Source: Erythrobasidium yunnanense (taxonomy: Eukaryota; Basidiomycota; Cystobasidiomycetes; Erythrobasidiales; Erythrobasidiaceae). From it: a stretch of 64,000 nt of DNA. The DNA lies in assembly GCA_001600175.1 (NCBI GenBank), contig BCJC01000002.1, positions 2,515,111 to 2,579,110 on the forward strand. Reading direction: 5' to 3'. A program made the position numbers and the translations under genes. The notes below the pieces were generated by a model that saw only the letters and a program-made list of their open reading frames with translations, had not been told where the DNA came from and ran no database searches. Positions 12,219 to 37,033 of the stretch are shown piece after piece. Within the stretch, counting starts at the first letter, position 1. The number at the start of each line of letters is the position of its first letter.

Positions 12219-15200
12219 ATGAAGTTCTCAAACACTCTCGTCTTGGGCGCTCTCACCATTGCGGCATCTTCGCCGACTATCACTGCTGCTCCCTTCCCTT
12301 CGGACGCTGGTTCGTCTACAGCTGGAACCGGAGCAAGCGCTGGTGCACCATCGCTCTCATCTAGTATCGGGGCTAGTGGTGGCCCTTCAGCCGTTACAAG
12401 CCCTGATCCCGATGGTGCCCTTTCCCCACGCTCGCGGGCGGTCGAGCGCTTTGGCATGCCGCCTGTGCAGAAGAGGAACAGCTTGAGGATGAGCAAGGAG
12501 AAGCGGGATGGTAAGCCTCGCCAATCATTTCGAGTGTCGAAGCGATACTGACGCTGTACCCATTTCAGGTAAACCGCTTGAGCGTCGCCAGCTTCTTCCA
12601 AATCTCGGTGGCTTGGGGTTGAACGCGAATCAGCTTGCCGGTCTGCAAGGAGGAGCTGGCTCTTCTCCTCTGTCTGGTCTCGGTCTGGGCGTACCCTCAC
12701 TCTCTGGCCTCGGCTTGGGTGGACTCGACGGCCTGACCGGTACAGCCAACGGTGTCTTGTCACAAGCCCAAGGTCTCCTTGCACCTGTTACTTCGCAAGC
12801 TCAAGGTCTTCTCGCACCCGTCACTGGCGCTCTGAACAGCGCTACTGCACCTCTAGCGCCCGTTGGCAGTCTGGTCAATGGCTTGACTGGCGACTTACCT
12901 CTTGTTGGACCGCTCCTCAATCAAGTACAATCCTTGACGGGGCTCAACAACATACTTGGAGGTGGCAGCGCTGGCAACCAGCAGAACGCAAACGCATTAG
13001 GAGGTCTAGGCCTGGGAGGTGTCTCGAGATTGGCCTCGCTTCAGAACTTGAATGCGCAACTCATACAGCAAGAGCTTCTAGCTGAGCTGTCTGCTCTCTC
13101 GTCGGGCAATACTGGAGCACTCACCAATAACCTGCAAGGATTGGCTGGCAACCTTCAGCAGAACATCCCTCTTCCCAACTTGCAGAACCCATTGCAAGGA
13201 AATCTAGGCTTCTTACAAGGCTTAGCTGGCCAAGTACAAGGTGCCGCAGCCAACGCTGCTCAAGGCCTTCCTCAACCTCTGCAAGGTGTTGCCGAACAAG
13301 CCCAGTCTGCACTCGCTGGCGCAAATGGTCTGGCCAACCAAGCGCAAGCTTTAACAGATACTGCTACTCAGGCATTACCTCAGCCGCATCAAGGTGTCGC
13401 GGCGCAAGCTCAAGCTGCACTTGGTGGAATTGGCAATCTACCACAAGCCCTTCAGAATCCAGCAGCTGGCTTGACTGCTCTCCTGCCTAATGGGCTCCCT
13501 TCTGTTCCCAACTTGGGACAGCTGCCAGCCAACCTCGCTGGCGTGCTGCCCGCTCCTCTTGCTGGCGCCCTGCCAAATCTACCTGTGCCCGAGCTACCCA
13601 ACCTTCCTCTTCCACCGTTACCTGGTCTTGGGGCATTCGATCCAGCGACTATTGCTAATCTGCAAGGCTTCCGTAACAAGCTAGCGGTGCCTGGCATTAA
13701 CGATGTCTCCTCTTCGCAATCAGTCATCCCGGATGTCTCTTCTATACCTTCTTCAGCCAGCGAGTGGGTAGCGTCAGCAACTACGTCTCTGGACCCTACT
13801 TCAGTCGAAGCAGTCGTCTCATCGGCTCTTCCTGCCTCTGTTTACCAAGCTGGAGGTCCAGTCATCGCTCCTGTACCATCGATTGTCGTCTCTCTCGAGT
13901 CTTCAGCCAGTCAAGCTGTCAACTCTGCTTTATCTTCAGCTTCGGCAGCAAGCCCCGTGATAGCAGTCACAAGCCTACCTCCGGATGCGACTTCTTCTCT
14001 CGTCCCAGCAGCACCAGTCCCTAGCGGCACGGTCAATCTGCAAAGACGAGACGGTGAACGATTGACTCCAGCTGGAGCTCAGCACAAGATCCAGGACAAT
14101 CCAAATGCTCAAGGTCTGCCCGATCCGTACGATGCGAGTACCGAAGCACAAGCACCTGCTGCAGATGCACCTGTCTCAGTTGCGGGACCTTCAGAGTCTA
14201 TCGTAGCCGACGCTCAGAGTATCATCTCTTCCGTCGAATCAGGACTGGGTCCCGTACCTACGAGCACTGCCGATGGAAACGGGAACCCCATGACCTACCT
14301 GGCTCCTCCGCTTACTGCCGACCCTACACAAGATCCCGCCAACATCAACTTCAACACCGACTCGGCTACGTATGGACCTACTGCGACCGCCGCAGCCAAC
14401 TCTGCACCTGCTCCTGTCGGTTCTGGGTCGTCTGCGGCAAGCGCGCCTACAGCGCCAGCTAGGAAATACAGACGAGATGCGGGTCTGCCTGAAGCAGTCC
14501 AACCTCAGGCTCCCTTAACAAATGACAGTGTGGCATCTGATCAAGTCATTGACCAGACCAGCTCTTCGCATTTGAAGCCTTTGGCACCTGCCGTCGCTCC
14601 ACATATCAATGAGTATGTCGTGGAGTACATCCCGCCATCACCAGCGCAGTCGTTCCATTCCGCTTTCTCCACACCTCCTCTTTCACCGTCGCTCACTTCC
14701 TCAGACTGGTCTCTGCCATCCGATGGTGCCGCATTGCCTATCTTCGATGCAAGCAAGGATACAGTGAAGCTTGTCTCTGCAGATCCTGCAGGCAATACTG
14801 CCATTCCCAGTCCTTACCCTGGCTGGTCACAGGATACAGTCTATCGAAAAGCCGACAGCTCCGCTGGCAAAGGCATTCCAGTGGCTCCTATTCAGCCCTC
14901 ACCAGCATCAAATATAGTCAAGCCAGCCGGTCTGGGACGTTTTGCAAAGCTTAGAAGACAGCGATCTCAGCCTAGCTCGCTCGAGCAGGTTGAAGAGGAT
15001 CATGAGGAAGAGCCGTTTGGGGATGTCTTTTCTGGCAGTAAACTGCAGAATAAGATTGATCCTCATGCAGAGGCAGATGCTGCTGGTGCTCCCTCTCGCC
15101 CTACCAACGGTGTTCCCACTCCACCCTCCAACTGGTCGCAAGACACAGTCTACAAGCATTCTGCCAACGGAGGAGCTGCCAAGCAATCTGCTCTCGGAGG

Positions 15201-15868
15201 CAGCGTCGCTCAGCTCATTGCAAAGCGTGGCATACTGGAAGAGACCGATGGAGCACTCTTCAAGCGAGGTGGTAGGCCGCCTTTGCTGCGAGCCAGGGCC
15301 TATAGCCCGCAAGTAATCGATCTTGCTCCGGCTCCGGTGGAGAAGCGAATGAGGATGGTCCGCTTTGCGCGGTACACCAAAGTCAGAAGAGATGGAGACG
15401 ATGTCGTCGAAGCGGTTCATCAACCGCCAGCGGGTATGCCTTCTGTCGTTGACGTAATGCAGCAGGGACTGACTAAGTATTTGTCACGCAGGTGAACATG
15501 GTCAACCACCTGCAGTCATCAAGGCAGCCAATGTTGCAGCGCCCGCTCCTTCAGAATCAGCCAGCGGCGATTCAGCTCAGCCCACAGCAAGCGCGAAGGA
15601 CAATCGTTCGCACGTAAAGAGCACGAAGAAGAAGGGCAGTAGCAGCAAGAAGCCAAGCAGCGGCGAGAAGTCTGGTGCTCAGCACAAGAAGGGAAAAGGA
15701 AAGAAGAAGGAGCCTGCGCCGTCTGCTGCGCCTGAAGGACCAGCACCCAGTGAGGAGCCTGCTCCCGCAGCTGATGCGCCTGAAGAATCCGCAGCAGCAG
15801 ATGAGCCGGCAGCTAGAATGAGGAAGAGAAGCTTGCTTAAACGGTTCGGTCTTCGTAGATGGATCTGA
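12219..15868 (+). CDS. large secreted repeat protein with many Kex2-type cleavage sites
   Basis: Exons 12219-12510, 12569-15433 and 15492-15868 give 1,177 aa. The N terminus (MKFSNTLVLGALTIAASS..ITAAPFP) is a signal peptide. Residues ~100-450 are a Gly/Leu/Gln/Ala-rich repeat zone with periodic LxGLGxG and QAQxAL/QGLxxPLQG units. Dibasic sites occur at intervals (KEKRDG, LERRQL, LQRRDG, KYRRDA, IAKRG, LFKRG, KVRRDG), suggesting Kex2 processing. Two copies of WSQDTVY with similar flanks lie near residues 850 and 960. The third exon starts after intron 15434-15491, which has a CTGAC branch site; it encodes a Lys/Ser/Ala/Pro-rich tail ending in KRFGLRRWI. Stopping at 15495 would mean reading through that intron. 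Repetitive Kex2-processed secreted proteins in fungi include repellents and cell-surface peptides; that role is inference. No catalytic domain is seen. Confidence 0.8.
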
Positions 15869-17245: not shown

Positions 17246-18015
17246 TTAAACTCTACCACGTCCGCGTCCTGTCTTTGGCACAGCGGTCGTGTAGGACGGG
17301 CATCGGAAGATTTCGCTGGCTAGCACTGGACGAGGAGTACCTGCGTACACGACGACTATGAGCCTGTTACTACCTCATGAGAAACACGCCTAGCTTACTG
17401 TATGCCAAAGTCTGAACGGTCGCATCACATTCGTACATCTCCGCAGTCGAAGGTACCACGAATCCGTCCCGATTGTACTGGTACACCAACTCCGTCTGCG
17501 TGGGAACAACGAATGGCAGGACTGGAGCTCTGGGTTGAAGGCTCTGTGCTGGTGCACTGTCGGCTCTCTCTCCTGGCGGAAGACCGCAAGCTTCAGCTAC
17601 AAGGAAAGGGCTTTATACAGATTCAACCATACTTGGAGCTGTAGTTGGCTTCTTCTCACTCTCCTTCTTGGGCTTGACATCACTGCTGCTGTTCCGGCCT
17701 AGGTGCGGGATGCGTAGGTGTCGCTTCTTGTTGGGATCGGTAGGAATTGCTGGCAAAGAGGGGGACGCGATAGGAGAACTAACTAGAGGCGGCGCACTTT
17801 CAGGCAAGGCCATGTTACCGGCTGCAGGAGAGGGTGAAAGCGGAGGTGACATTGTGGAAGCTGAGGATACGGAGCTGGTGCGCGAATGACCGCCTGGCGC
17901 TGGCAACGCTGGTGGGCTGCGGGCTATCCGAGGCCCCGTATCAGCGTGTCGTGTTCGAGTGTACAAAGAAGATAGCCTAACCTTCAGACTCGCGTCGATG
18001 TCGTAGGATGGTCAT
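17246..18015 (-). CDS. unknown short protein, tandem paralogue 1 of 3
   Basis: Four exons (17982-18015, 17660-17923, 17399-17596, 17246-17340) encode 196 aa; all introns are phase 1 and 58-63 nt. The N-terminal half is Ser/Pro-rich with a basic patch (KKRHLRIPHLGR). The C-terminal half contains QTELVYQY, ATVQTLAYSTPRP, ASEIFRCPSY and ends TGRGRGRV. An intron falls directly after the LAY codons. The same arrangement recurs in the genes at 18956-19534 and 20018-20736, which share the C-terminal pattern L(A/S)Y-x-(S/T)P followed ~15 residues later by xPxY. This copy has CPSY where the other two have PPxY. No known family is recognised. The third junction could use other acceptors, but GTGAGA...TTGTAG (17597-17659) has the best signals. 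Confidence 0.6.
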
Positions 18016-18955
18016 GTTGTCAAATCAAGACCAATGAACTGAAGAAGCAGAGACAAAGAGAAGCAGTCAGCTATGCGAGACAAAAGAAAGCTTTTCATGT
18101 CTATCGTCATCTTGCGCGCAGCTCTAGCTGCAGCTTTTGGGCTGTCCTGCAAAGCACAGCGCAAAAATAGTTCGGCAGAGCTTCGCGTACCTCGAAATAG
18201 ACCTGTCACAAAGTCTGAAGGCTTCAGCGCTTCTTCGTTCAGCTTGAAGAAGCCAGCTATGAGTTGCTGAAGAGTGTGTTCACAGATAAGCCAAGCTACT
18301 TCCCGCGAGAGAAGAAGTTATGGCAGACTTCTCGGCAGTAGGACCCTCTATGACGAAAGAGAGCTTTTTTTCAGGGTCACTCTTGTCAGCGCGGTTTGAA
18401 GGTATGAGTAATATGCTCCGATAACTCCACAGCTTCCAGTTGTATGCACAACTGCGACAGTGCGGGCTTTCCGCAAGTCAGTATGCAGGACACCCTCGTC
18501 TTTAAGGTCACTGAGAATCGCAGACACTACCTCGTACCGCGGTGATACCCATTACTAGTGACCACTAATGCTTCTTATGCTTTCACAAGAAGTTGAAAGC
18601 AAGCAATCCATCGACTGCTTCATCGCAAGCGGTTTCAGCGTAAAGGCATGTGGCTGACCCATAGCATGATGCCCAAGAGTTGGTGAGTGTGCAAATCAGT
18701 TATGTTTGTGTGTGTGTGAGCCGGACGGAACTATTCAAGCAAGAGAGAGATGGAAGAATGCTGAAATTGATAGGAAGTGCGCTATCTTATACAATATTGA
18801 AGATGTGAATCTGGCATTGAAATGGTCGTTAAGTTCGTGAGTCAGTTCTTGCTGCGATAGATGTGCTGATTATCCGTATAGGGTCTCTGTTTGTTCCCTA
18901 CTCGCTCAAATCCGCTTATCTTGTCTGTGCGGCCTCAATCACGCTCTGTATAGCA
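18016..18955. other. intergenic stretch between paralogues 1 and 2
   Basis: No coding exon could be supported. A short TG run (about 18702-18720) is present. This should hold the promoter of paralogue 1 (leftward) and the 3' region of paralogue 2. Confidence 0.4.
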
Positions 18956-19534
18956 TTATTGCCGAATGGCGAAAGCATAGGATGGAGGTGCACCAAAGTC
19001 CGAACTCAGCCAGGATAACGGTTGAGGCGAATCTGTAGTTCGGTCAGCTTTGGCCAATCTGACATGAAATAAAGAACAACTTGCCATATGATAGACATGG
19101 CACGAAAGCATGATACTCTGCGATATGATATATTCGTGGCTCGACCCTTCCTTCCTCATCATACTCCTGGATGGTCTGACCGGTTGTCAGAGGCTTCGCT
19201 GGAGTGACAGCTACAGACTTTGGCTTATCGTCAACGCTTGGAAGAGGACTGAGAACATCTCGCCAAAAGCGCGACAATGCAGACGATTTGCGGACGCGTT
19301 GCTGCAGCTCCGAGTCGGAGGAGACGGTGGAAGATGGGGATGGCAGAGGTGCGTCGATAGGTCGTGAGAATAGAGATGTGATGCGCTTGCGTGTACTGAT
19401 ACCTGATCAAACCGTATTCAGCCAAGATCTGGGTTAACAGACATGCTGATCAGCTCTGTACCTGACGAGGTCGATGCCCAGGAAAGCGGCCGAGCTTGCG
19501 AGAAGGTGCGCAGGCGAGGCTGAGGATTGGACAT
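18956..19534 (-). CDS. unknown short PY-motif protein, tandem paralogue 2 of 3
   Basis: Exons 19462-19534, 19085-19402 and 18956-19032 encode 155 aa. The N terminus is MSNPQPRLRTFSQARPLSW; the middle has SRFWRDVLSPLPS; the C terminus has FVPCLSYDSPQP, SSDFGAPPSY and ends AFAIRQ. The last intron (19033-19084, 52 nt) starts GCAAGT instead of GT: a GC-AG intron. Support comes from the paralogue at 20018, whose last intron falls at the same phase after PCLAY and whose last exon also encodes DFGAPP(A/S)Y. Splicing at an upstream GT instead would give a different, non-conserved tail. PPSY matches the PPxY consensus bound by WW domains of Nedd4/Rsp5 ligases; binding is inference. Confidence 0.6.
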
Positions 19535-20017
19535 GGTGAGGTAGAGAGGAAGAGAGAGAGAGACCAGAATCGTGGAGAGATGGATATGCTGAACAAGCCA
19601 GAACGAGAGCAGACTTTGCATAATTGAGTTCCGCGATCTGTTTGTACTGGTTGGTAAGTAAGCATGTAGGGCGGTGTTAAGCGCGATCCTGTCTAGCCAT
19701 GCCACGCGACGCGCAAAGTCTGTCTAGCAGAGGAGTCAGCTGCTAGCGAAAGCCGCTGGACGCCGCGAGCTTTCAGTGCCCTCGGCCTGTGTGGACAAAC
19801 ACAACCAAATAGAAGAGCTTGGGCCGCTTTCCGTTGACGTTCTGACAGGTGAGCTTGCTGGCTTGCTGCGATGGAAGGGAAAGATATTCGATGCACCTGG
19901 TATTGCTTGTTATGCTACAAAGACATTGTTGAAAGGCCCGTCGAATCGCAGATAGAAGACCCGGTCATACTTTTACAAGTACTCTTGCTGTGTACTGTTG
20001 CTGAAGGCCTTATTCCT
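19535..20017. other. intergenic stretch between paralogues 2 and 3
   Basis: No supported exon. It contains a short GA/AG-rich run near 19540-19562 just upstream of paralogue 2, plausibly part of its leader. Confidence 0.4.
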
Positions 20018-20736
20018 TCATCGTCGAGCCCGCTCGTAAGCAGGCGGCGCGCCGAAGTCCTCGCTTGCGACTGTCGCGCGTGGTGTTTCTGCGCAAAGAA
20101 AGGTTGAAGTCAGACATGCCCTTAGAGGTCGCTCAAGTCGCACTCACTGTAAGCGAGACATGGCATCGTAGCTTCGCGAACTTCGTGCGTCTGGGCCATC
20201 AGGGCGCCGCTGCGAGTGATCTGCGGCATCACTTCGCTGGGCATTCGTACCATACGTTGTTGCGCGAAAGGCATATCAGGATTGTTAGGCCCTGCGTTCG
20301 ACGCTACAGCTGCAGAAGCCTCGAATTAGCTGATGCACCCGCCTTAGGGGTAAGAACGACCGCTCACATGACTGTCCAGGTAAGAGCTGTGGACCTGCCG
20401 TACGAATGGCTTCATTCCTCTTTACGTTCTCTGGTCCGTCTGAAAGCGTTGCTGGCGAGCCAATGAAAGCTATGATATTGCAGTTTAGGTCAGCCATGAG
20501 CGCGGGGACGGATATGAGATGTCCAGTAACTCACCGAACGGCACAAAGTTCTGTGGATAGTGACTTATATTCTGACTCTGCGTTGACGAAGTAGTGCTTG
20601 TGCTGTCGTTGGAGGATTGAGAGGTGGAGCGCGAAGCTCTTCGAGCAAGAGGACCAGACAGGGTAGGTATTTCGGTGGGTTTCAGCACTTCCTTGCCTTT
20701 TTTCTTGTCTGCTGATGCGAAGATCCCAAAGAGCAT
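20018..20736 (-). CDS. unknown short PY-motif protein, tandem paralogue 3 of 3
   Basis: Exons 20535-20736, 20368-20469, 20148-20303 and 20018-20088 encode 176 aa; introns are 65, 64 and 59 nt, all phase 1. The protein starts MLFGIFASADKKKGKEV, followed by a Ser/Thr-rich stretch, and ends with REATMPCLAYKTPRATVASE, then DFGAPPAYERARR. The tail aligns clearly with paralogue 2 (PCLSY...DFGAPPSY) and more weakly with paralogue 1 (QTLAYSTPRP...ASEIFRCPSY). The intron directly after the LAY codons is at the same position and phase in all three genes, so they descend from one duplicated ancestor. Function is unknown; PPAY is a possible WW-domain ligand. Confidence 0.65.
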
Positions 20737-22759: not shown

Positions 22760-25700
22760 ATGGACGACGAGCACGAGCGCTCCCTCGAGCCAGAACAGCA
22801 GGAGATTGATGAGCAGTACGATGAGCCAGCTACAAAAGCAAGGAAGCCACGCAAGAGAAAGGCGAAAGCGATGGAAGCCCACCTCTTTGGCCTGTCCGCC
22901 GACGAGAAAGCAGCGATTTTGGCGTCCATTGTAGACAGCCCAGGGCCAGCTACGCGAGTGAGCCATGATACGAGCTTTGCAGCAGAAGAAGAAGAGCCAG
23001 AGCCGCCCAAGAAGGAGCCAACTCAGCCGCCAGAGGTCATCGCGGCCAGGCAAAAGGTGCTACGAACCAGCTGGAGGCTGGCCGCCTTCTCCCACTTCAG
23101 CGCAACTTTCCCACATCTAGTAGCAAAGGACTTTGATATCGACAAGCTCGAGGCAGACCTTGACGGAACAGACGAAAACAGCTACATTGGCGAGGTCGTC
23201 AGCCGTCTCCTCTACACCCTCACCAGAGACTCGCGACTGGCGTGAGTGAGCTTCGTTGCGTTCATAAGTATGTACTGACACTATGTATGCTTGTCGCATG
23301 CTTCCCAGAGGCAAAGAACCAGACAAGCCATGGCTTTTCTCCCTCAGACGCGAATACCTCAAATACGATCCAGCACACAATCCGCTGGGAACCTGGCCGC
23401 TCTATGCTGAGGAAGAGTACCCTGCAGAAGCTTCTAGTACTATATCTACACCTCAAGACTCTGCGGAAGGTGGTACTGCCGATGCTACTAAGCCAGGCTC
23501 TACCCAGACTCAGCAGCCTGTAGCGCTGGTCCCTAGAGTCGGCCAAGGTCCCTTGAGTGCTGTGCCGGTGTCGCACACTGCCGGCGAAGCTGGAAATCCA
23601 GATGCAATGGACGTAGATGACAAGGAAGGCGGAGCAGAACGGCGAACATCCAAAGGCTGGGAGGATCTCACGCTTGAGCAAAAGGTACCACAAGCTAAGA
23701 CGCGCGAAGTGGCCCGTACTGACCTTCATCTTATCCAGATATACTCGCTCTGGTCTATCTGCGAATGGCAACTGACAAACCCAGAAAAATTCAAGACTTT
23801 CCTCACGAAACCGCTTCCTGAGGAGCATCAGGTCGTATGGGTGAGCTTGGATCGCCATAATACGCGTTTATACTGTATCGTCTTGCTGAATATGTATATA
23901 CAACAGCGCATCGATCCTATCGGCACTGACTCCAAGCACAACGTCTACTGGCTCTTTGACGACAACAGGCTCTGGGTCGAGCGCGAGAGTCCACAGAAGC
24001 GCGAGCTTCGTCTCATCTACGAAGAAGCTCAGCAGAAGAACATGAAGAAGCAAGCTGCTCGGGAAAAGCGACTCTTGGCAAACCAGCGCAAGCGAATGAA
24101 GGCTTTGCATGAAGCTCGCAGACTTCGAATGGAAGCTAAACGCATCCAGGACGAGAAGGAACGCAAAGAACTTGAAGCTATACATGCTAAGATCAAAGCT
24201 GAAGGCGGGACTATTCCCGTCCAGGCTAGTCCTAACGGCAAGAAGCGCAAGCGTGCAGGATCCCAGTCTGGTGAAGGGTCAGATGATGAAGACTTCGAGA
24301 TAGAAGGAGGTGGTGGACGAACCTCATCCCGTCTTGGCAAAGCTCGTCTGCATGAAAGAATGGCTGCTAGACCCCCTAGACGCAAGTCTACGCGCACAGC
24401 TAGCTCTACGGACCTAGCTGCTGATGGAGTGGTAGATGATGAGGACTGGCAGAAAATCCCAGCTGATTGGCTAAAGACGGAAGATCAGGAGAGGAATGAG
24501 GATCCAGACTTCGGAGAAGACGCAGCTGAAAACGAAGAGGACGTGGAGGCCGATGACGTTGGGAGCGACTCGGGACTCAGTAATCTGGAAGATGACGAAG
24601 AGCTAGCTAAAGCTGCAAATGTCAGAGCAAGCGCTCGCAATGTGTCAAGGAGAAGTCCGCGAAAGGCAAACGACACCCTGGTCAAAGCTGAAGCCGAGGA
24701 AAGCGAGTTGAGCCCCCTAAGCGGAGGCGAAGACGAGGATTTCGAAGTCTCGGAAGAAGAGGAGCCTGAAGAGGAGGATGGGCAGACGTATCCTGATTCC
24801 AAGTATAACATGGGACCTTCGTTCGAAAACGAAGACAAAGACATGCCCGAAGGCTTTGTCAAGTGGGAGTCTGTAAGTCACTCTGTCTTTCCTCTTGGCA
24901 AGAGATGTGCCCTGACCAGCTTTGCATTCCAGCTATGTACCAACTTGGAAGAATGGGAGGCTTTCCCTGCACGTTTCGCCGGCACAAAGAACGCCAACGA
25001 GCTTGCTCTTCTTGACTACATCAACAACACCGTCATTCCCGGTGTCCGAGCCGCCTACGAAGTCATTGCCGAAGAGCGTCGTCGCAAAGAAGAGGCTGAG
25101 CGGGCCTACTTGATGCGCCAGAGGAAGGAAGCGGAGCGCAAAGCAGCCAAAGAGGCCGCAAAGGAAGCTGCCAAAGCTGCAAAAGCAGCTGGAGTGCCTG
25201 CTCTTACCTCCAAAGCGCTCAGAGGCGTTCGATCTACGCGTAGCAAAGCTTCTACGGCTACTCCAACGGATAGCTTGGGTGTTCAGCAGGACAGCCGCGC
25301 CAACTTGGAAGTGTCGGACACAAGGGCGTCTGGCCTCGATAGAAGAGCTGCTAGAGCGCAGCAGCGAGAAGAGGAAAAGCGCGCAAGGGAAGAAGCAGAG
25401 TTGATGGCTGCTCTGCAAGCGTCACAGCCTCCTCAGGCGGAGGAAGAACTTGCATCGGCGCCCCTTGATGACGAAGCTGGACTGGATACTGAACCTCTTA
25501 GGCAAGCACCAGGTAAGCTTGCATTCTATACTCCTATTGGCGCCAGCTCGACTAACTTTTTCACCTAGCTGGTGACGACGCCGATTACCAGCCCGATGCA
25601 GCAAACGAAGTCATCTACAACGAGAATGGCGAAGTCATGGTGCCTATCATCTATGCCGATGAGGAGGATGACTATTTCCTGGATTGCTCGATTTGCAAGA

Positions 25701-26584
25701 AGAGAGGCATCAACCTGGTATGTTATTGATCAATTGTGAAGCACCAAAGAGGTTGCTGACAACGATATCTCCATCAGGACGCCGATCTTCAGCTTGTGCA
25801 ATGCGATACTTGCGAGCGATGGGAACACATAGCTTGCCATCGTGAAGCGGACAAGAAGGCTGGCCGCCCTCGACGGAATTTTGATGTTGAAGACTTCTAT
25901 TGCGAAGACTGCGAGGGAGTCGGGCATCAAGCTATCAAGATCATTCCCAAGGCGAGCAAGCGGGAACGATCAGATGCTCAGAAGATTGGCGCCGCTAAAG
26001 GAGCAGAGAAGCGGAAAGCAAAGACGGAAGAGAGAAGACTTGAGAGAGCTGCGATTGAAGCTGCTACTGGGAAGAAGCCGCCTGCGAGGAAACGTGCCCA
26101 ACCGCTGGAGAAAGAGCTCTACAAGCCTGTTGCGCGCACAACAAAACGCAGTCGACAAAGTGGCGCAAGCGAGTTAGGCAACGACACCGTGCAGTCGCAA
26201 GACGAGACTATGCAGGATGAAGAGGACGCATCTGTAATGGAGCAGGATGAGCCTACTCTCCAGCTGAATGGCTCGAGCGCAGCACTTGATACCACTCGAC
26301 CTCCTGTTAGTCAAGGCAGCGATATTCCTATCGATCCGAGTCTGGCATCGAGGGTCTCTAGTCCGCTTCCGCAAGCACCGATGGCCACGAGCGGATCTCA
26401 GCCGGTGGTTCCGCTGCCATCTTTCCTCCAGGCAGAGGAGGCTTCACAGGCCCTGCCTGCGCTCTCTTCTAATCTGGCCGAAGTGCCCATTCCCGGCTTG
26501 GCCCAGCCTACGCAAGGCAACGGAGATTTACTTGACCCGCTGCTCGCATCAGGAAACTCGAATGAGAATGGCTTGCAGCAGTAG
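22760..26584 (+). CDS. WHIM-domain and PHD-finger chromatin protein (IOC2-like, ISW1b-type)
   Basis: Seven exons (22760-23241, 23309-23684, 23739-23840, 23907-24872, 24933-25512, 25569-25717, 25778-26584) encode 1,153 aa. A DDT-like stretch near residues 97-155 (FSHFSATFPHLVAKDFDIDK) precedes WHIM motifs: IYSLWSICEWQL near residue 290 and RIDPIGTDSKHNVYWLFDD near 325. A long charged coiled-coil and acidic region follows. A C4HC3 PHD finger near residues 870-930 has CSIC, CDTCERWEH..C and YCEDC. This order matches fungal ISWI partners such as yeast Ioc2, where WHIM binds the ISWI motor and linker DNA and the PHD finger reads histone tails. Four introns keep the frame open, so unspliced reading would insert false residues. 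The C-terminal ~200 residues are Ser/Pro-rich. Confidence 0.85.
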
Positions 26585-34626: not shown

Positions 34627-37033
34627 ATGCCCCTCACCCTCGACGACTTCTCCTCGCTCCCCAGCTCACCAGGGATATCCTATCCTGATCTCGTTACTCA
34701 GATTGGAGCGGATACCTTATGCACGACATTGAAAGACTATGTAGACTGCAGCGGGTTCATGATCCCAGTCCTCGTCAGCGCAGTCGTGGGATCAGTGTGT
34801 GAGTGTGCTCGCTCCCTCATCATACAGAAACAGTCGCTGATGGTGCCCTCATGCAGTAATGGGCGTCGTCGTATCGCAAGGTGCGACACACTCAAGCTGG
34901 GCCTCGATGCCAAACCTCACACTAACTTGATGTGATTGTCCCAGCCTACTCGTACACCTGGATATTCTACTGCAGACACATGCGCTCCTACGGCATACTC
35001 TCCATCGTATGGGCGTCCGTGTTATTCCAGCTCATCTCAGCAGCCGCCGACCTAGCACGGATCGTCGATATCTTCGGCAACAACTTCGGCTCCTACTCGT
35101 CTTTCGTAAAGCCCCGCGCTGCAGACGCCTTGATCTTCACTTCAAATGCCGTGTCTCAAGCTATCACGCACATCTTCTTACTGCTAAGAGCGTACAAGTT
35201 TAGCAAGATACAGCATAAATTCCATAAGAAAGTCAAGAGGGTATTCATACATGGCGTACTGGCATTCATGGCTTTCTTGATCATAACGAGCTTCGTTGGA
35301 TGCTTGGTCACGATGGTCGAGATCCAGGTTATGTGAGTCCAGGCACCAGCTTAAACAGATATCATGAGGCTAATGCTTGTTTGTGTAGCGGCAACCAGAT
35401 GCTCCTCGCGTTCAGGACTAAAGAGACCAAGATCTACGACATCGCTACGCCCATCTGGCTTGCCTCCGCGACTATCGTCGATATCACTCTGGCAGGCATT
35501 ATCTTCTGGGAGCTGTATCTGCCCAAGAAGGAGCGCAGCCATCGTCACTCAGCGTGCGTAAACATCTTCTGCCCTTGCGCAGCAAGTCTAACTGACGAAT
35601 GTACCACTCGCAGCCTCCACGACCGCATCATTTCCTTCCTTCTTCTCGTCGGCCAGTCGGGCATCAGTCTTGCTCTCTTACAACTCGCGACACTTATAAT
35701 CTGGGAGTACTATCTTTCCCTCTCCAATCCCTTAAAATGGTCTTCCTGGATGCTTTTACCACAGACTCTTCTAGGGGTATACTATACCATCACTCTCCTG
35801 AACATCATCATGATTCCATACTCCATCAGGAAGGAAAACAGCACGCGGAGCAATCAGGGCGGCCAGCTATCGACGCTGAGCAAGCTGAATGCTGGTCTAT
35901 CAGGTATCCTGGGAGGAGGCGCAGGTGGAGGTAGAGGCAGACAAGGCGACCAAGAGACGCAGATCTCAAGTAGCATGCCCCTTACTCCCAAACAGGCTAT
36001 GCGATTCGGCTGGAAGCTTGACGCAGGCAAGTTTAGCCATCATCATCAGATGGGCCAGTACCCGCACCATCACGCGAACAGAGCGGGAACAGGAAGTTTC
36101 GTCTTGACTTCTCCAACGAGATCAGCGCATGGTATTGGGAATGGGATAGCGGGACATGAGATAGTAGTACTGAGAGAAACGCTGCGAAGCGAGGATAAGA
36201 ACAGCAGCGAAGTGCATATTGGGAGGGGCGACCCATCGTACGAGAAGCAAGACTATACACCCGCATCAGGCAAGGTTTCCCCGCCTTTCTATCAGTCTGC
36301 CAATTCGTATCAAGGCACAAGGGATGGATACGGCTACGCCCCTGGAAAAGCATATAAATCAGCCCTCGTCTCGAGAATGGAGAGTCGACGACCCTCTTCT
36401 ACGCTCATTGAAGAACTTCCACCCACTTCTTCGTTCCTCTACGTTGGTCACGGCGAGAACAAAGACAAAGAGGAAGACAAGGAGATTGTGAAGAGTACGG
36501 AAATCGTAAAGATGTTTCCTAGTCCTCCTAGGTCGAGAGCTGGAAGTACGGGTATCGAGTTGATGAAATCTTCAGTCGATAACAAGCAGGCGCAAAGTGA
36601 AAGCGATGTGGAGATGGAGGAGAAGATGCAGCAGCAAGCCGCATACAGCTTCTTCTCAGCTGCCAAAGCAGAAGCAGAAGCTGAAAACGCCTCTAGCCGT
36701 AACAGGACCTCACCGCGAGAAGGTGATCAAGAGATAGATCTCGAAGCCTATCGATTCGGCAAGGATTTCTCCAATCCATCTACTCCGCTACCCTATTCGC
36801 AGGTCTTCCAGCAGCCTGTCCCTCTATCTCCTTCGCATGTCATTGGCACCTATACGCCGCGAAGGGAAGCGTTTGGCTCTTTTCCAGGAGTGTCGGGATT
36901 CAGTAATGAACATGATGATAATGAAGTAAGGAGAGGAAGGGATGATAGTAGTGATGTGGACGATGCGCTCAGCCAGGACTATGAGCAGGACGCAGCGGAG
37001 GATCGAAGTTCAAGCAGGTTCAGCTTTGATTAG
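34627..37033 (+). CDS. seven-transmembrane protein, DUF6534-like
   Basis: Exons 34627-34798, 34857-34880 (24 nt), 34945-35332, 35389-35553 and 35614-37033 encode 722 aa. The first ~300 residues contain seven hydrophobic segments, starting FMIPVLVSAVVGSVLMGVVV, then SYGILSIVWASVLFQLISAA, an Ala/Ile-rich third, VLAFMAFLIITSFVGCLVTM, the LASATIVDITLAGIIFWEL segment, LLLVGQSGISLALLQLATLI and LLGVYYTITLLNIIMI. This matches the basidiomycete DUF6534 receptor-like architecture, in which the last segments carry the conserved domain. A cytosolic tail of ~400 Ser/Glu/His-rich residues follows. Ligand and signalling partners are unknown. Confidence 0.75.

Follow-up and report, generated by a model that had tools for sequence, protein, structure and literature searches.

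Comparison with described Rsp5 adaptors

PPxY is described as the ligand class of WW domains and Rsp5 (PMC1557994, PMC9105457). According to PMC1557994, about 4% of the yeast proteins have a PY motif, and a single motif is therefore weak evidence. Non-arrestin adaptors of Rsp5 named for yeast are Bsd2, Tre1-2, Rcr1-2, Ear1, Ssh4, Hua1, Sna3 and Rup1, of which Bsd2, Rcr1 and Rcr2 are characterised as membrane proteins (PMC9105457). For basidiomycetes, PMC12345238 gives four classical arrestins in Cryptococcus neoformans and describes Rra2 of the same species, an Rsp5 target that has a short C-terminal motif and is not distinctly similar to the Rim8 arrestin.

The window studied here, i.e. the whole stretch of 64,000 bases that was analysed (51.8% G+C, eukaryotic, with short introns), contains a cluster of three genes, termed A, B and C, which can be compared with these systems. 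The reading we prefer, at a probability of roughly 0.42, is that they are old tandem duplicates whose products would be soluble and largely disordered and would carry a docking tail, ending in a WW ligand in two of the three.

Compared by description only, the proteins resemble the yeast non-arrestin adaptors in the absence of an arrestin fold and, in two of three cases (B and C), in the presence of a PY motif. They differ from the membrane-bound Bsd2, Rcr1 and Rcr2 in that no transmembrane segment is suggested for any of them (highest 19-residue Kyte-Doolittle means 0.67 for A, 0.47 for B and 0.39 for C); such an anchor need not be present in every adaptor. Hua1 and Rup1 are soluble adaptors. 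The alpha-arrestins (ARTs) offer a further parallel with their C-terminal PY motif, seen here in B (PPSY) and C (PPAY) and replaced by CPSY in A, and with a number of copies possibly acting with a single ligase. In contrast to the ARTs, arrestin N and C domains were found in none of the three proteins (Pfam, E<=10), which are only 155-197 aa long. Rra2 is likewise comparable by description only, as a basidiomycete non-arrestin protein with a short C-terminal motif. That motif is however SxP with an upstream ubiquitinated lysine, and S-x-P occurs at the aligned place here only in A (STP).

Gene models and introns

A first-pass annotation had placed three leftward genes in this region. Models rebuilt from the sequence bear out all three spans, and the range of protein lengths given there, 155-196 aa, holds except for its maximum, which is 197 aa for gene A:

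Gene A, 17246-18015, minus strand: exons 18015-17982, 17923-17633, 17572-17399 and 17340-17246; 197 aa.
Gene B, 18956-19534, minus strand: exons 19534-19462, 19402-19085 and 19032-18956; 155 aa.
Gene C, 20018-20736, minus strand: exons 20736-20535, 20469-20368, 20309-20148 and 20088-20018; 178 aa.

For the second intron of gene A there are two in-frame options of 60 or 36 nt, the shorter one adding 8 aa; we preferred 60 nt because it is nearer to the lengths of the other introns.

Codon usage was scored in bits per codon against the 16 long ORFs of the window, with shuffled 60-codon stretches as the null (95% point 0.017, 99% point 0.076). In frame, gene A reaches 0.061 (shifted frames -0.202 and -0.221), gene B 0.097 (-0.128 and -0.231) and gene C 0.129 (-0.204 and -0.087). 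Thus all three whole coding sequences exceed the 95% point, A remaining below the 99% point, and their shifted and antisense frames are all negative. The last exons score poorly (A -0.263, B -0.15, C -0.024), and in the first exon of gene B another frame outscores its own (0.234 vs 0.088). The test is not specific, as ORFs in the gaps between the genes reach 0.025, 0.028 and even 0.145 (ORF 19736-19909, 57 codons).

The three models contain eight predicted introns of 52-65 nt, seven of which start with GT and one, the last of gene B, with GC. All eight are in phase 1, a point absent from the first-pass annotation; they do not amount to eight independent cases, because some of them are homologous. 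For the introns of the neighbouring gene for ribosomal protein eS26, phases 0, 2 and 1 were read by eye. The second introns of A and C, both in phase 1 and respectively 58 and 54 codons ahead of the last one, are at most suggestive of homology. The last introns are the following:

Last intron of A, 17341-17398, minus strand: 58 nt, GTAAGC...CAG, phase 1, directly after the LAY codons.
Last intron of B, 19033-19084, minus strand: 52 nt, GC-AG type, GCAAGT...CAG, phase 1, directly after the LSY codons.
Last intron of C, 20089-20147, minus strand: 59 nt, GTGAGT...CAG, phase 1, directly after the LAY codons.

A phase-1 intron immediately after L(A/S)Y, as had been noticed earlier, is thus present in each rebuilt model. 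Judged from the reading frames, its retention would lead to an early stop and loss of the exon with the terminal motif in all three genes.

The shared C-terminal tail

At their C-termini the proteins have a homologous tail in common, which is about 55 residues long and made up of 31-37 residues ahead of the last intron and the last exon. Local alignments begin 34 (A-B), 37 (A-C) and 31 (B-C) residues upstream of the intron and continue through the last exon. Eleven columns, in the order G, E, A, L, Y, P, S, F, P, Y and A, are invariant across the three proteins, and the tail can roughly be written as G-x-[VL] ... E ... A-x-x-x-x-L-[AS]-Y-x-[ST]-P ... S-x-x-F ... P-[SA]-Y-x-x-A. Of the pattern proposed at first, the two motifs stand; the spacer of about 15 residues does not, since (S/T)P and (P/C)P(A/S)Y are 10 (A), 12 (B) and 11 (C) residues apart. 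Nor is the similarity confined to these two motifs, the alignments reaching further upstream.

CPSY of A, 17291-17302, minus strand: sits where the paralogues have PPxY, as read from sequence and alignment.
PPSY of B, 18977-18988, minus strand: inside DFGAPPSY (pattern at 18977-18997).
PPAY of C, 20036-20047, minus strand: inside DFGAPPAY (pattern at 20036-20056).

The sequence therefore reads as first described, with a PPxY preceded by DFGA in two members and CPSY in the third, and DFGAPP-Y is the longest run common to B and C. A tail HMM was also run against the unspliced six-frame ORFs (at least 12 aa) of the window for further copies; nothing but exons of these three genes passed the inclusion threshold, the next match having an E-value of 2.0.

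Evidence for common descent

When tail was compared with tail, none of 2000 shuffles reached the observed score for A-B, A-C or B-C. The two halves of the tail, picked after the alignment had been seen, were also scored separately. For the part before the intron 4 (A-B), 1 (A-C) and 22 (B-C) of 5000 shuffles reached the observed value, and for the last-exon part 6, 2 and 0, respectively. At DNA level the pattern FGAPP[APST]Y, chosen with the genes already known, has two sites in the window (B and C) and none in 100 shuffles.

A control independent of the gene models comprised all two-exon peptides of the window (n=1661) with introns of 45-75 nt that are preceded by 20 or more open codons and followed by 14 or more. 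It used simple donor and acceptor rules, to which the donor GCAAGT was added with knowledge of gene B. Pairs were counted if their loci were at least 250 nt apart and the peptides were junction-aligned in the same phase with at least 6 residues on each side (n=52). A-C (35.4 bits), B-C (33.1 bits) and A-B (32.7 bits) took the first three ranks, followed by a pair with 22.3 bits. In an unspliced six-frame all-against-all comparison of 1929 ORFs, the last exons of B and C were 18th of the 576 pairs with E<=1 (E 0.028), and A-B and A-C were absent from the best 40 of these pairs. As this comparison fails to single out the three genes, the case for homology rests on the splice models.

The first-pass annotation had argued for duplication rather than chance, and this is well supported by the shuffles, the spliced control over the whole window and the separate exon halves. 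With alignable sequence and an intron of the same position and phase in A, B and C, the three are best seen as tandem duplicates, apparently old, of a single small gene.

Divergence of N-termini and codons

In front of the tail no pair shows similarity beyond that of shuffled sequences, since 1717 (A-B), 1264 (A-C) and 1718 (B-C) of 2000 shuffles score at least as high; the N-terminal comparisons in fact score below the shuffle mean. The contrast noted before, of diverged N-termini beside a conserved tail, is thereby upheld. Every N-terminal part has an [RK][RK]x[ST] site, the observed number being reached by 2.6% (A), 7.1% (B) and 33.8% (C) of the shuffles.

Where two copies have the same residue, it is mostly encoded by a different codon: in 15 of 20 cases for A-B, 18 of 26 for A-C and 14 of 18 for B-C (M and W left out). 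In DFGAPP-Y, B and C use different codons for 6 of the 7 shared residues. The copies therefore look old and the tail constrained. With silent sites changed and the peptide kept, the tail appears to be under constraint, which is read here from codon counts and is no formal dN/dS.

Properties of the proteins

P, S, T and G account for 35-40% of the residues in A, B and C. AlphaFold2 modelled exon 2 of B with low confidence (mean pLDDT 57.5, pTM 0.16); a weak hairpin (IQEY, VEPR) in the tail's first part was the only structural element. The Uversky index lies slightly on the ordered side in all three (0.018 for A, 0.055 for B, 0.032 for C), and the TOP-IDP disorder average of the tail of A, about 0.02-0.16, is below that of most of A preceding the tail. 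Disorder is consequently not proven by these values, least of all for the tail.

Possible function of the tail

In the preferred reading, the proteins would be soluble and largely disordered, and their tail would serve for docking and be maintained by purifying selection. The tail's last piece reads F-x-x-[PC]-P-[SA]-Y, B and C having one extra residue ahead of the last P, and in these two it would be a group-I WW ligand. The PPxY would then most likely be read by a Nedd4/Rsp5-type HECT ligase or another WW protein, and the fast-changing N-termini might either bring targets to this partner or be its substrates. In A, where the WW-ligand consensus is lost, the protein might act through the remaining tail only, or not at all.

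A role of B and C as Nedd4/Rsp5 adaptors, put forward in the first-pass annotation, is plausible; it fits the exact PPxY of both proteins and the fact that no other domains were detected, A having CPSY. This tetrapeptide falls outside the PPxY and LPxY classes named in PMC1557994. As A is without PPxY, WW binding mediated by this motif cannot be the common function of the three proteins. PPxY arises in 6.2% of the shuffles of B and 2.7% of those of C, and the motifs of B and C, coming from one ancestor, are not two independent cases. For B and C, WW binding is our best guess from the motif, a docking role of the whole tail apart from WW domains following close behind. That the N-termini pick the targets is a bare idea one step beyond WW binding.

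It might alternatively be that the tail docks a partner lacking a WW domain, through one longer interface to which L-[AS]-Y-x-[ST]-P and the terminal F...P-x-Y contribute contacts, the PPxY of two copies being incidental. We regard this as possible and hold it as a tentative second reading. The invariant columns are distributed along the entire tail, conservation is seen in either exon half and A, without PPxY, retains the rest, all of which is consistent with such an interface; against it, precisely DFGAPP-Y is the longest B-C run and matches a well-known ligand class exactly.

PPxY occurs in Rsp5 substrates too. The proteins could accordingly be short-lived substrates instead of adaptors, with PPxY as a built-in degradation signal and the function located in the N-termini, and the lysines present (8 in A, 5 in B, 7 in C) would suit this. 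However, the N-termini have no common sequence that would indicate a common N-terminal function, and we consider the substrate role unlikely.

Very unlikely, in our opinion, is that the genes are neutral relics, i.e. old duplicates no longer expressed, or that the splice models are partly wrong. The GC donor of B, the poor scores of the last exons, the better-scoring other frame in the first exon of B, the non-gene gap ORF 19736-19909 scoring equally well (0.145) and the unspliced comparison, which is not significant alone, would be in line with the one or the other. However, the frames are open throughout, the whole coding sequences score above 0.017 in all three genes with negative shifted and antisense frames, the peptide is conserved while codons changed, and the three pairs lead the spliced control. 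A chance resemblance among three unrelated short genes, for which their compositional bias and a per-exon similarity at noise level in the whole-window search could be cited, is hardly credible in the face of the shuffle tests, the FGAPP[APST]Y count, the spliced control and the separately conserved exon halves.

To return to the preferred reading of a docking tail with a WW ligand in B and C, a tail that recruits a WW-domain ligase would make for a simple adaptor design, one fixed plug with exchangeable heads, and would help to explain how Rsp5 is directed in basidiomycetes with few arrestins. It is improbable, in our estimate, that the genes represent an undescribed family of soluble, domain-free adaptors with a fixed PY tail on a separate last exon and freely evolving N-termini, in which A might be a non-recruiting competitor. 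In such a family, splicing of the last intron would determine which copies bear the ligase motif, an early stop following from its retention in all three genes. Were no ligase recruited, a clean tandem family would still be left in which a short tail is held and all else has diverged, as well as a warning that such families can disappear in unspliced searches.

Search for relatives

None of the three proteins matched a Pfam family at E<=10. A PDB profile search returned four sequences, the best being a viral structural polyprotein (E 0.76), and PHROGs one member (E 0.27); both results were ascribed to chance, as was a match of the NCBIfam family NinE to residues 4-31 of C, outside the tail (E 0.00074, 19.3 bits vs a cut-off of 88). 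In viral contigs (IMG/VR), none of 49 pattern matches to the tail alignment and none of 4 to the tail of B was confirmed. In prokaryotic genome contigs (GTDB), none of 19 matches to the tail alignment was confirmed, and 1 of 57 to the tail of C. The latter (Mycobacterium asiaticum) has 31% identity, with a best piece of 63% over 19 residues, and was judged a chance match because it was picked by peptide pattern, contains a stop codon in the aligned stretch and lies opposite a 294-aa ORF.

Hence Pfam, NCBIfam, PHROGs, PDB, IMG/VR and GTDB yielded no credible relative, these sources hardly covering fungal proteins beyond Pfam and PDB; the contig collections, consisting of viruses and prokaryotes, say little about fungal relatives. 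The first-pass annotation had named no described family with this layout; it is quite possible, however, that the family is already catalogued in fungal databases. Six peptide strings gave no match in the literature searched, and among the papers listed none presented such a family in its title or the opening of its abstract. Tandem families of small, fast-evolving proteins are common in fungi, so the surprise is limited.

Neighbouring genes

Directly downstream of the cluster lies the eS26 gene mentioned above (PF01283, E 2.9e-54 with joined exons), and the upstream neighbour encodes a methyltransferase domain (PF08241, E 6.1e-11). Of five minus-strand ORFs that lie in gaps next to the three genes and were scanned against Pfam, four had no match; ORF 18348-18551 (minus strand) gave a weak, sub-threshold match to HTH_Crp_2 (E 0.05, 14 bits vs a cut-off of 27).

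Further open frames of the window are located on the plus strand. The frame at 12493-15495 encodes 1000 aa, among which L, G, A, P and S are abundant and repeats such as SQAQGLLAPVTSQAQGLLAPV occur, and that at 35228-37033 encodes 601 aa, the first part of which has apparent hydrophobic membrane segments when inspected by eye; neither matched Pfam at E<=0.01. Open frames at 23268-26584 contain a PHD finger (E 9.9e-8) as well as a sub-threshold match to a WSD/D-TOX E motif (E 0.00087), and presumably resemble a subunit of an ISWI complex of the Itc1/BAZ type.
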